Below, one piece after another: positions 7,560 to 39,056 of a stretch of 64,000 nt of DNA. The stretch lies in the NCBI RefSeq assembly GCF_000012865.1, contig NC_007503.1:868001-932000 (forward strand), given 5' to 3'. Made by a program: the position numbers and the translations under genes. Positions within the stretch are counted from its first letter, which is position 1, and each line of letters opens with the position of its first letter. The DNA is from Carboxydothermus hydrogenoformans Z-2901. Lineage in GTDB: Bacteria > Bacillota > Z-2901 > Carboxydothermales > Carboxydothermaceae. The notes beneath the pieces were generated by a model. It was not told the DNA's origin. It ran no database searches and was given only the letters and a program-made list of their open reading frames with translations.

Positions 7560-7653
7560 CGAAAAGTTTGGCAAAACCGGCGAAAGCCGGCGACGCAAAG
7601 CTAAAGGGGCTAAGGCGGGTAACCGCTATGCCAGCCAGCTGCCGGGGGTAGGA
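7560..7653 (+). promoter_or_regulatory. c-di-GMP-I (GEMM-I) riboswitch 1, before flgB
   Basis: The conserved core is present in order: GGCAAAACC, a P2 stem CCGGC/GCCGG capped by a GAAA tetraloop, GACGCAAAGC, a variable P3 arm, then CTATGCCAGCCAGCTGCC with the tetraloop receptor. By my alignment the ligand-contacting position in GGCAAA is G, which favours c-di-GMP over the 3',3'-cGAMP variant. CTGCCGGGGG at the 3' end can pair with CCTTGGGCAG inside the downstream terminator (one mismatch, G-U pairs), giving an antiterminator. Ligand binding would then favour termination, an OFF switch for the operon. Confidence 0.92.
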
Positions 7654-7660
7654 ATTAAAG

Positions 7661-7690
7661 CCTCCTTGGGCAGGAGGTTTTTATTTTTTC
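7661..7690 (+). terminator. Riboswitch 1 expression-platform terminator
   Basis: CCTCC (7661-7665) and GGAGG (7673-7677) form a hairpin followed by TTTTTATTTTTT. Its loop-side bases are complementary to the 3' end of the aptamer. Between here and flgB (7691-7815) only an AT-rich leader is visible. Confidence 0.8.
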
Positions 7691-7815
7691 TGAAAGCAAA
7701 GATATCTTGCTGAATTTTTTTTTGGAAAAAGTTAAAATAAAATCGAGAAGGTAAAGGAATTTAGCTAATTTTGTCAAATATATTATAGAAAGTTATGAAA
7801 AAAGGGGAGAAGCGC

Positions 7816-8226
7816 ATGGACCTTTTTGGAGGGGTTACCTACAACCTTTTGAAACTGGGGATTGATGCTGCAACAATCCGCCAGCAGGCGATTGCCCATA
7901 ACATTGCCAACGTCAATACTCCAGGATACCGGAAGGAAGTAGTGGTGTTTGAGGAAAAGGTTCAGGAATTTTTAAACCAAAAAAAAGGTAATTTTTCTTT
8001 AAAAACTACCCATCCTCGCCATCTAACGGCCAAAGGGTTCAGTTTACCTTTTGCAGAAATTAAGCGAGAAAATTCTACTGCCATGAGAATTGACAAGAAT
8101 AACGTGGACATCGAAACGGAAATGGTAGATTTGGCATATAACCAGCTTTATTATGAAACGGCTGTGGAGCGGTTAAAAGGCACCCTTGCTTCTTTAGAAA
8201 TGGTGATTACCGGTGGAAGGAGGTAA
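7816..8226 (+). CDS. flgB: Flagellar basal-body rod protein FlgB
   Basis: Proximal rod subunit, 136 residues, first gene of the fla/che operon. The N-terminal rod signature 'QQAIAHNIANVNTPGYRK' is intact. I start at ATG 7816, preceded by AAAAAAGGGGAGAAGCGC; the in-frame ATG at 7795 lies upstream of that ribosome site and would add seven atypical residues. FlgB forms the proximal rod with FlgC and FliE, encoded next. Confidence 0.95.
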   Translation: MDLFGGVTYNLLKLGIDAATIRQQAIAHNIANVNTPGYRKEVVVFEEKVQEFLNQKKGNFSLKTTHPRHLTAKGFSLPFAEIKRENSTAMRIDKNNVDIETEMVDLAYNQLYYETAVERLKGTLASLEMVITGGRR

Positions 8227-8232
8227 GTGTAG

Positions 8233-8649
8233 ATGGCATTTTTTAGTTCTTTCCAAATAACCGCTTCGGCCCTTACCGCCCACCGTTTATGGCTGGATAC
8301 GATAGTTGATAACATTGCCAATGCCAATACTACCCGGACGCCTGCAGGTGGTACCTACAATCGAAAAGACGTGATTTTTGAGGAAATCCTGGAGGCAAAG
8401 GCCGGGTTTAAAGGCGGCGGGGTCAGGGTCAGTCAGATTGTAGAAGATACCAAAACTCCCTACCGCTATGTCTTTAATCCTAACCATCCCGATGCGGATC
8501 CCAATACCGGTTTAGTAAAATATCCCAACGTTAATATCAACGATGAGATAGTAAATTTACTGGCCGCTCAGAGGGCGTACGAAGCCAATGTTACGGTATT
8601 CAATACGGCTAAAGCCATGTATGCGAAGGCTCTCGAGCTCAGCCGTTAG
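8233..8649 (+). CDS. flgC: Flagellar basal-body rod protein FlgC
   Basis: 138 residues. It shows the rod-family N-terminus ('LTAHRLWLDTIVDNIANANT') and the C-terminal helix 'EIVNLLAAQRAYEANVTVFN'. It follows flgB by 6 bases behind GGAAGGAGG, as part of the proximal rod. Confidence 0.95.
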   Translation: MAFFSSFQITASALTAHRLWLDTIVDNIANANTTRTPAGGTYNRKDVIFEEILEAKAGFKGGGVRVSQIVEDTKTPYRYVFNPNHPDADPNTGLVKYPNVNINDEIVNLLAAQRAYEANVTVFNTAKAMYAKALELSR

Positions 8650-8660
8650 GAGGGGTTAAT

Positions 8661-8948
8661 GTGGAGATTACCGGCATTTCTTTTCCCAATATTATCCTAC
8701 TTAATAACTCGGCACAATCAACAAAAACTTTAGATTTTGAAAAGAAACTTGCTGAGGCTTTAGATAAAGTTAACGAAAAACAGCTGAAAGCCGAGCAAGC
8801 GACCCAGGATTTTTTAGCCGGGAAAGTGGATGATATTCACCAGGTTTTAATTTTAGCCCAGGAAGCTAAATTGAGTTTGGAATTAGCGGTGGAGGTTCGC
8901 AACAAAATAGTTGAGGCCTATCAGGAAATTAGCCGGATGCAGATTTAA
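8661..8948 (+). CDS. fliE: Flagellar hook-basal body protein FliE
   Basis: 95 residues with a GTG start after TTAGGAGGGG. FliE joins the MS ring to the rod. Family residues are seen in 'FEKKLAEALDKVNEKQLKAE', 'DFLAGKVDDIHQVLILAQEA' and 'VRNKIVEAYQEISRMQI'. The flgB-flgC-fliE-fliF order is canonical. Confidence 0.94.
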   Translation: MEITGISFPNIILLNNSAQSTKTLDFEKKLAEALDKVNEKQLKAEQATQDFLAGKVDDIHQVLILAQEAKLSLELAVEVRNKIVEAYQEISRMQI

Positions 8949-37461: not shown

Positions 37462-37505
37462 CTGGCTTACCAGGTAAGATGGAGGTGATTTAATTAGACA
37501 AAAGC

Positions 37506-38480
37506 ATGATTCCATTTTTTGCCAAGAAAAGGGAAAATGAAGAAGTGGTGAGGAGAGAGTTGACCTTGGAATTACAGGATTCATTATCAATTTTAGAAAA
37601 GCAAATTGAAAAGGTGATTCAATTAAGTGAAGCCGCAGTTTTAGAAATGGGACAAGCTGCGGAAAATAGTATGAATATGTTAAAAAATAGTAAAGATTTA
37701 ATTACCAGTTCTCTTCAGGAAGTTTTAGAGCTAAATCGGGCTAATGTTGCTGCAATTTCTAATGTGGTGGAGGAAAATGCCCGAGTGCTGCAGGAGGTGA
37801 AAGCTTACCTCCATCAATTAATTATAAAAATTGATGGGGTTTTTCGTTTATGGGGGAAAGAAGAACAGGAACAGCTGGTTGAGCTATTGGAAAATGTTAC
37901 AAGGAAAACCCGGGTGGTAGCATTAAATGCTTCCATTGAAGCAGCTCGTTTGGGAGCGGCAGGACGAAGCTTTGCCGTCGTAGCCCAGGAGATCCAAAAC
38001 CTGGTTGGTACGACTTCTGAGGCTATTGAAAATTTGGCTGAACATAACCGGGCGTTTGAACAAAAAGTCGAAGAATTATCTAAGAATTTAGATGAGCTTG
38101 AAAGTTATTTTATAAATCAGCTTAGTTCGGCAAATGAAAAAATTATCCATAGCGGAAAGATAAGCCAGGAGTGGGGACAGAAAACCAAGGAAATTTTTCA
38201 AAAAGCTGACAAAGCGCTGGAAAACTTGGAAGAGGTAATTACTCGAGGAGCGGCTAATTTTCAGTTTCAAGACATTATTGCCCAAAGGCTAAATAACGTT
38301 ATAAAAGGTTTAAAGCTGATTAAGGAATATTTAAAAAATAAGGGACAGGGAGAGTTATTAAGAAAAATTGAAACGCTTTATACCTCGGAAGATGAAAAAA
38401 TTATTCATCGTACTGCTTTAAATAATTCTCAAGAGAGAGATGCGGAGCTGCTAAATAACGTTGAGTTTTTTAACCAGTGA
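37506..38480 (+). CDS. Soluble receptor-like protein with MCP signalling hairpin
   Basis: 324 residues, no transmembrane segment. Long coiled coil with a diverged signalling tip ('RVVALNASIEAARLGAAGRS', 'FAVVAQEIQNLVGTTSEAIE'); 'NFQFQDIIAQRLNNVIKGL' near residue 250 recalls the sequence seen in CheZ-like or tip-adjacent helices. It lacks a sensor domain. The start is uncertain: GGAGGTG (37482-37488) is 17-18 bases before ATG 37506, whereas the in-frame codon at the ideal distance is TTA (37494). It is paired with the response regulator downstream. Confidence 0.75.
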   Translation: MIPFFAKKRENEEVVRRELTLELQDSLSILEKQIEKVIQLSEAAVLEMGQAAENSMNMLKNSKDLITSSLQEVLELNRANVAAISNVVEENARVLQEVKAYLHQLIIKIDGVFRLWGKEEQEQLVELLENVTRKTRVVALNASIEAARLGAAGRSFAVVAQEIQNLVGTTSEAIENLAEHNRAFEQKVEELSKNLDELESYFINQLSSANEKIIHSGKISQEWGQKTKEIFQKADKALENLEEVITRGAANFQFQDIIAQRLNNVIKGLKLIKEYLKNKGQGELLRKIETLYTSEDEKIIHRTALNNSQERDAELLNNVEFFNQ

Positions 38481-38493
38481 GGAGGTATAGCAG

Positions 38494-38856
38494 ATGAAAA
38501 AAATATTGGCATTGGATGATTCGGCTACGATGCTGCAAAGTATAAAAATATCGTTGCTAAGGAAAGGTCACCAGGTTGCAACATTTACTAAAGGAAGCGA
38601 AGCTTTAGATATGCTTGGGAAAGAAAAATTTGATTTAATCATAACTGACTTAAACATGCCGGAAATGGACGGGATAACTTTTATTCAAAAAGTCCGGGCA
38701 TTATCTAACTACAAATTCACGCCAGTGATAGTTTTAACAACTGAGTCTCAAGCTGCGAAAAAAGAGCAGGCTCGTAGAGCTGGAGCAACAGCCTGGATTA
38801 CCAAACCGTTTACTCCTGAACAGCTTTTAGGTGTAGTGGAAAAAGTAGCACGGTAG
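38494..38856 (+). CDS. CheY-like response regulator
   Basis: 120 residues, receiver domain only: 'ALDDSATMLQSIKISLL', phospho-acceptor D in 'LIITDLNMPEMDGITFIQKV', T in 'VIVLTTESQAAKK', K in 'AWITKPFTPEQL'. It starts after GAGGAGG, 13 bases from the receptor-like gene. Its output partner is not evident; it may compete for the CheA at 45338-48034. Confidence 0.92.
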   Translation: MKKILALDDSATMLQSIKISLLRKGHQVATFTKGSEALDMLGKEKFDLIITDLNMPEMDGITFIQKVRALSNYKFTPVIVLTTESQAAKKEQARRAGATAWITKPFTPEQLLGVVEKVAR

Positions 38857-38919
38857 TTATGTCTGAAAGCTGAGGAATATGCTAAAAAATTTACTAAAAT
38901 GATAAAAACAGGTACTCCT

Positions 38920-39006
38920 CCTTTGTCAAAGGCAAACCCGGTGAAAGCCGGGGGCGCAAAGCTACAGGGGCTAAAGCTTAAAGCTAAGCCAGCCAGCTGC
39001 CAAAGG
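38920..39006 (+). promoter_or_regulatory. c-di-GMP-I riboswitch 3, before the second chemosensory operon
   Basis: P1 is clear: CCTTTG (38920-38925) pairs with CAAAGG (39001-39006). The core reads GGCAAACCC, a GAAA-capped stem, GGCGCAAAGC, P3, and AAGCCAGCCAGCTGCC. The ligand-site base is G by alignment. P3 bases AGCTTAAAG (38975-38983) are an exact 9-base complement of CTTTAAGCT (39017-39025), the left part of the following terminator. Free aptamer could therefore antiterminate, and bound aptamer terminate (OFF). Confidence 0.92.
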
Positions 39007-39017
39007 GCTTGGGAGGC

Positions 39018-39056
39018 TTTAAGCTCTCTTCCGTGGGGGTAGAGAGCTTTTATGTT
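39018..39056 (+). terminator. Riboswitch 3 expression-platform hairpin
   Basis: AAGCTCTC (39021-39028) pairs with GAGAGCTT (39042-39049), followed by TTATGTTTT. The ATG inside the U tract (39052) is the first possible start of the next gene, so this hairpin could block transcription or translation. GTGGGGGTAG lies in its loop. Confidence 0.75.

Follow-up and report, generated by a model that had tools for sequence, protein, structure and literature searches.

Carboxydothermus hydrogenoformans is a thermophilic CO oxidiser. The window analysed here, a 64-kb stretch of its genome spanning 868001-932000, lies in a motility island in which flagellar and chemosensory genes are accompanied by three riboswitch elements, here called sites 1 to 3. 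For comparison, two congeners were used, C. islandicus (G001) and a further species (G002), giving three Carboxydothermus species including the present one. The relevant features, in window coordinates, are the following:

7470-7497 (+): unconditional terminator of the upstream flagellin/fliD/fliS unit, conserved in both congeners
7510-7536 (+): sigma-A-like promoter of the flgB operon, TTGACA-15-TATAAG
7560-7646 (+): site 1 aptamer, in the leader of the flgB operon behind its own promoter
7657-7690 (+): putative conditional terminator of site 1, hairpin and U-tract; GGCAG 7669-7673 can pair with aptamer CTGCC 7639-7643
7816-32384 (+): unit B, comprising flgB, flgC, fliE, fliF, fliG, fliH, fliI, flgD, a FlgE/G-type hook/rod gene, fliL, fliN, fliO, fliP, fliQ, fliR, flhB, flhA, flhF, a flhG-like gene, pilZ, a sigD-like sigma factor gene, a FlgE/F/G-type rod gene, cheD, cheR, cheC, cheY, fliM and fliY
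25906-26553 (+): gene of a YcgR-type PilZ effector, inside unit B
32392-32476 (+): site 2 aptamer, starting 7 nt past the fliY stop
32482-32516 (+): putative conditional terminator of site 2; GGCAG 32495-32499 can pair with aptamer CTGCC 32469-32473
32534-36616 (+): distal genes of unit B, fapA (32534-34045), DUF2225 (34055-34741) and dCache-HAMP-MCP (34757-36616)
36621-36653 (+): unconditional terminator ending unit B after the MCP gene, conserved in C. islandicus
36858-36885 (+): promoter-like site of unit C, TTGACA-16-TACAAT, the best of the region; TTGACA-17-TACAAT in C. islandicus
37506-38856 (+): first genes of unit C, MCP-like (mcp, 37506-38480) and cheY (38494-38856)
38921-39004 (+): site 3 aptamer, between cheY and the HEAT gene
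39021-39059 (+): terminator of site 3, of a sequence type unlike those of sites 1 and 2
39100-48034 (+): second chemosensory genes, encoding a HEAT protein, CheR, a double MCP, a triple CheW, CheB, a 118-aa ORF in the cheY position (44975-45331) and CheA

Judged by sequence and covariance, the three elements are c-di-GMP-I riboswitches. A cmscan of the window against Rfam 15, a search that the earlier note had proposed, returned exactly three matches to the c-di-GMP-I family (RF01051), all full length and on the forward strand: site 1 at 7560-7646 (78.3 bits, E 1.1e-13), site 2 at 32392-32476 (81.5 bits, E 1.8e-14) and site 3 at 38921-39004 (80.8 bits, E 2.6e-14), far above the gathering score of 35 bits. 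The three aptamers are near-identical in sequence, and the core of site 3 is fully conserved. This agrees with the GEMM-I cores noticed earlier near 7560, 32396 and 38920, whose positions were off by at most 4 nt, and with the intrinsic terminators described after each of them, as a hairpin and U-tract stand behind all three aptamers, at 7657-7681, 32482-32508 and 39021-39049. The gene content given for the first two units is likewise confirmed, with flgB to fliY, including the PilZ effector, behind the first switch and the fapA, DUF2225 and Cache-receptor genes behind the second. The count of three holds for the window, but the motility island as a whole contains four copies, the fourth lying 16.7 kb ahead of the window start, at 851296 of the genome, and the genome (a single contig of 2,401,520 bp) contains seven, at 90359 (minus strand), 777679, 785822, 851296, 875560, 900392 and 906921. 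A literature search, which did not reach the original GEMM papers, found no paper on c-di-GMP riboswitches of Carboxydothermus.

The ligand-discriminating aptamer nucleotide, which we take to be position 20 in Vc2 numbering, is a G in sites 1, 2 and 3. This position separates c-di-GMP from cGAMP binders (PMC6274999; PMC9481103), and its identity supports the assignment of all three sites to the c-di-GMP rather than the cGAMP type; cGAMP as the ligand of the window sites was ruled out by the presence of G instead of A. The cGAMP riboswitches (GEMM-Ib) of Geobacter share their fold with the window copies but differ from them in having an A at position 20 (PMC8835794). In the C. hydrogenoformans genome, an A at this position occurs only in a copy outside the window (785822-785906, L007), which precedes an MCP gene. 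The C. islandicus ortholog of this copy (L018, G001:C128:1422) carries a G, and another C. islandicus copy (L023, G001:C10:5098) carries an A; a recent change of ligand among these copies is possible.

In all seven genome copies the terminator lies downstream of the aptamer without overlapping it, and constrained folding shows that aptamer and terminator can form jointly at each of the three window sites. At sites 1 and 2, the 3' strand of the aptamer pairs with the terminator's GGCAGGAGG, an antiterminator pairing that engages the 3' arm of the terminator, and the unconstrained MFE folds have aptamer AGCC..CUGCC paired to terminator GGCAG..GGUU. Growth of C. hydrogenoformans takes place at about 70 °C. 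At this temperature, folding of the aptamer raises the predicted terminator probability from 0.17 in the free RNA to 0.87 at site 1 and from 0.03 to 0.90 at site 2; at 37 °C the model gives no clear switch at site 1. When every loop tetramer was tried, the native loop GGCA ranked second of 256 at site 1 and first of 256 at site 2 for the terminator shift. Furthermore, 16 of the 20 Carboxydothermus copies examined retain GGCAG with AGG after it, although terminator loops have no such need, and the hairpin core and loop of the site 2 terminator are conserved across the three Carboxydothermus species. The alternative pairings and the predicted terminator shift support a Cd1-like OFF architecture at sites 1 and 2, in keeping with the switch type proposed earlier. 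The precedent invoked for it, a c-di-GMP-I OFF switch before flgB in Clostridioides difficile (Cd1, Cdi-1-3), is documented and has in common with the present sites the aptamer family, the target operon, the OFF layout and an antiterminator that uses the aptamer 3' strand (PMC6200980; PMC9262584). Terminator and aptamer of Cd1 are able to coexist (PMC9262584), and all functional class I switches of C. difficile are OFF switches (PMC6200980). By this design, at high c-di-GMP the 3' strand AGCC-AG-CUGCC would stay within the aptamer and the CCUCC/GGAGG hairpin behind it would stop transcription, while at low c-di-GMP the same strand would pair with terminator GGCAG-GA-GGUU and RNA polymerase would continue.

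Site 3 is found 64 nt behind cheY and would be an internal element of the third unit, ahead of the second chemosensory genes. The earlier description of a second chemosensory operon behind this site is correct as to the genes (HEAT, CheR, MCP, triple CheW, CheB and CheA), but the unit starts earlier, with mcp and cheY preceding the riboswitch. The likely start of the HEAT gene is GTG 39100, which has a GGAGG ribosome site and is common to C. islandicus; ATG 39052 was ruled out as its start, being located inside the U-tract of the terminator. The predicted terminator probability at site 3 is 0.94 in the free RNA versus 0.98 with the aptamer folded (70 °C, equilibrium), and this is the only window copy without GGCAGGAGG. 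Switching at site 3 is uncertain, since the terminator prevails in the prediction whether the aptamer is folded or not. In prefix folds, the 5' arm of the terminator pairs transiently with stem P3 of the aptamer, so that a kinetic switch is possible.

These properties bear on the alternative that at least one site is non-functional, site 3 (or degenerate copies) being a fixed partial terminator or a relic of spread by duplication. Besides the near-equal terminator probabilities and the missing GGCAGGAGG, the absence of site 3 from C. islandicus, where the 851296 copy has decayed too, fits this alternative, as does the finding that 5 of the 12 class I copies in C. difficile are non-functional (PMC6366702). 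On the other hand, the fully conserved site 3 core, at 80.8 bits, and the transient P3 pairing argue for a working element, and we regard a lack of switch function at one or more sites as somewhat unlikely.

Site 1 would serve as the leader of the flgB-fliY operon, with a promoter of its own that scores 10.3 in a weighted scan; the G002 ortholog, TTGACA-15-TATAAT, scores 14.6, above all 1000 coding windows. The operon extends over 24.6 kb from flgB to fliY, and none of its intergenic gaps exceeds 80 nt. Searches for promoters and unconditional terminators between site 1 and site 2 yielded none that was convincing, terminator-like sites being at chance level. Site 2 then follows the fliY stop by 7 nt in all three Carboxydothermus species. 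Neither a consensus scan nor the weighted scan found a promoter before it, the best score of 3.1 being reached by 87% of random coding windows, and a sigma-28 pattern search found no site near site 2 or site 3. In G002, a weak TTCACC-15-TAAAAT is located before site 2, inside fliY, and a non-canonical promoter may be present within this gene. Since site 2 abuts fliY in three species and lacks a promoter signal, its probable role is to control read-through of the flgB-fliY operon as a second gate, in series behind site 1. It would thus act as a conditional terminator within the operon, close to the 3' end; transcription of the fapA, DUF2225 and Cache-receptor genes would start at the flgB promoter, and only polymerases that have passed both switches would reach them.

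The interpretation that we consider probable is therefore that of OFF riboswitches of which sites 1 and 2 act in series on one operon and site 3 is internal to the third unit. The earlier note had instead proposed that each riboswitch leads an independently promoted unit, with motor, receptors and second array responding together. Three separate gene groups do stand behind the three sites, site 1 has its own promoter, and the 64 nt of upstream room at site 3 is near the ordinary range. This parallel response is nevertheless not borne out: site 2 is without a promoter-like signal and lies immediately behind fliY in three species, and site 3 is inside a unit. In C. islandicus, cheY runs straight into the HEAT gene without a riboswitch, and the promoter-like site conserved there precedes mcp-cheY instead. 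Independent promotion was dropped as the first choice when the consensus scan, the sigma-28 pattern and the weighted scan yielded no promoter at site 2, and we now consider it unlikely. ON switches, by which c-di-GMP would increase read-through, have precedents in some class I and cGAMP GEMM switches (PMC9262584) and in Bc2 of Bacillus thuringiensis (PMC6366702), but are very improbable and were ruled out on anatomy, since aptamer and terminator are mutually exclusive in the ON design of pilM (PMC9262584) and do not overlap at these sites, and since the terminators of sites 1 and 2 are predicted to become more probable once the aptamer folds.

The series arrangement of sites 1 and 2 differs from known systems in its geometry. 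C. difficile has been described with one switch at the flgB operon; here the island contains four, one of them inside the end of the operon. Tandem pseudo-cooperative c-di-GMP-I switches likewise comprise two switches of the same class with their own terminators and an expected steeper response (PMC9481103; PMC12452182); sites 1 and 2 are probably on a single transcript. However, the known tandems, which are in series and contiguous (PMC9481103), precede one gene (PMC9481103; PMC12452182), whereas some 30 genes, over a distance of 24.7 kb, separate site 1 from site 2, and only the distal genes would sense both. Tentatively, this could be seen as a distributed tandem, in which two terminators for the same ligand, at the head and near the 3' end of a motility transcript of about 29 kb, grade the response so that the motor genes have one gate and the fapA-receptor genes two, and in which control of HD-GYP genes (851296 and 90359) closes a positive feedback that results in a bistable motile/sessile choice. 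Riboswitches are usually regarded as 5' leader elements. If the series reading is true, an operon-internal switch would sense this messenger a second time, 25 kb beyond the first gate, and yield a steeper response for distal than for proximal genes.

The feedback part of this proposal depends on copies outside the window. The 851296 copy stands before a unit that starts with an HD-GYP gene and contains motAB, an MCP gene, cheW, cheA, cheB, flgM, flgN and flgK. Next come flagellin, fliD and fliS, the genes with which the window opens. Its predicted terminator probability is 0.98 with or without a folded aptamer, giving no predicted equilibrium switch. Two of the seven genome copies precede HD-GYP genes (L010 3296-4653 and L008 8376-9445). 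The HD, HHE and GYP motifs are all present in the protein associated with 90359; in that associated with 851296, GYP is replaced by GYL. Were these OFF switches, abundant c-di-GMP would reduce the amount of a phosphodiesterase and thereby, we infer, reinforce itself. Genome-wide, the domain matches for c-di-GMP enzymes amount to 11 GGDEF, 15 HD_5 and 2 EAL. Control of c-di-GMP metabolism by c-di-GMP riboswitches is described as rare (PMC6366702). Within the window, positions 36645-37500 hold an HD-GYP gene remnant that is far better preserved at the counterpart position in C. islandicus.

Among the three Carboxydothermus species, the riboswitch sites in the island are labile. Site 2 is kept in all three. 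Site 1 is present here and in G002 and absent in C. islandicus, which has a TTGACA-17-TATCTT promoter in its place; as the other two species carry site 1, its loss in C. islandicus is the simpler reading of the sequences. Site 3 occurs in this genome only: G002 is without the second che operon, and in C. islandicus cheY abuts the HEAT gene with no riboswitch between them, a pattern in which a gain here and a loss in C. islandicus are indistinguishable by sequence. In C. islandicus the 851296 copy has degenerated and its promoter region is lost; in G002 both the copy and its gene are absent. Copies align across both aptamer and terminator, which suggests that they spread as a cassette. The three species thus differ naturally in whether sites 1 and 3 are present, which makes the series idea testable.

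Single sites of this kind are ordinary for the phylum, in which the c-di-GMP-I family was found in 229 of 300 sampled genomes. A riboswitch in the flgB leader is ordinary as well: it occurs just before the flgB-fliF genes in at least 8 of 25 phylum genomes with fliF, picked for few contigs and riboswitch presence. What is of interest is how many copies the island holds and the placement of site 2 within an operon, probably in series with site 1. Within 60 kb of fliF, four copies are present here and at most two in every other genome among the matches listed, which supports the earlier remark that several in one island are unusual; a copy downstream of fliF within this distance was seen in this genome only, among the matches listed for the 25 genomes. 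A survey of genome contigs based on FapA recovered site 2 in C. islandicus only and is uninformative on other genera. Of the readable outgroup copies with a same-strand upstream gene, only L051, in an unrelated genome (G085), is closer to that gene than 60 nt. Its aptamer lies 15 nt behind a tyrosine-kinase-like gene (exopolysaccharide type, by eye) and is possibly another in-operon riboswitch. Beyond the second chemosensory genes, the window also contains a T-box leader (48763-49086, 109.5 bits) before an ORF at 49121, with a tRNA on the minus strand (48492-48564) near it.
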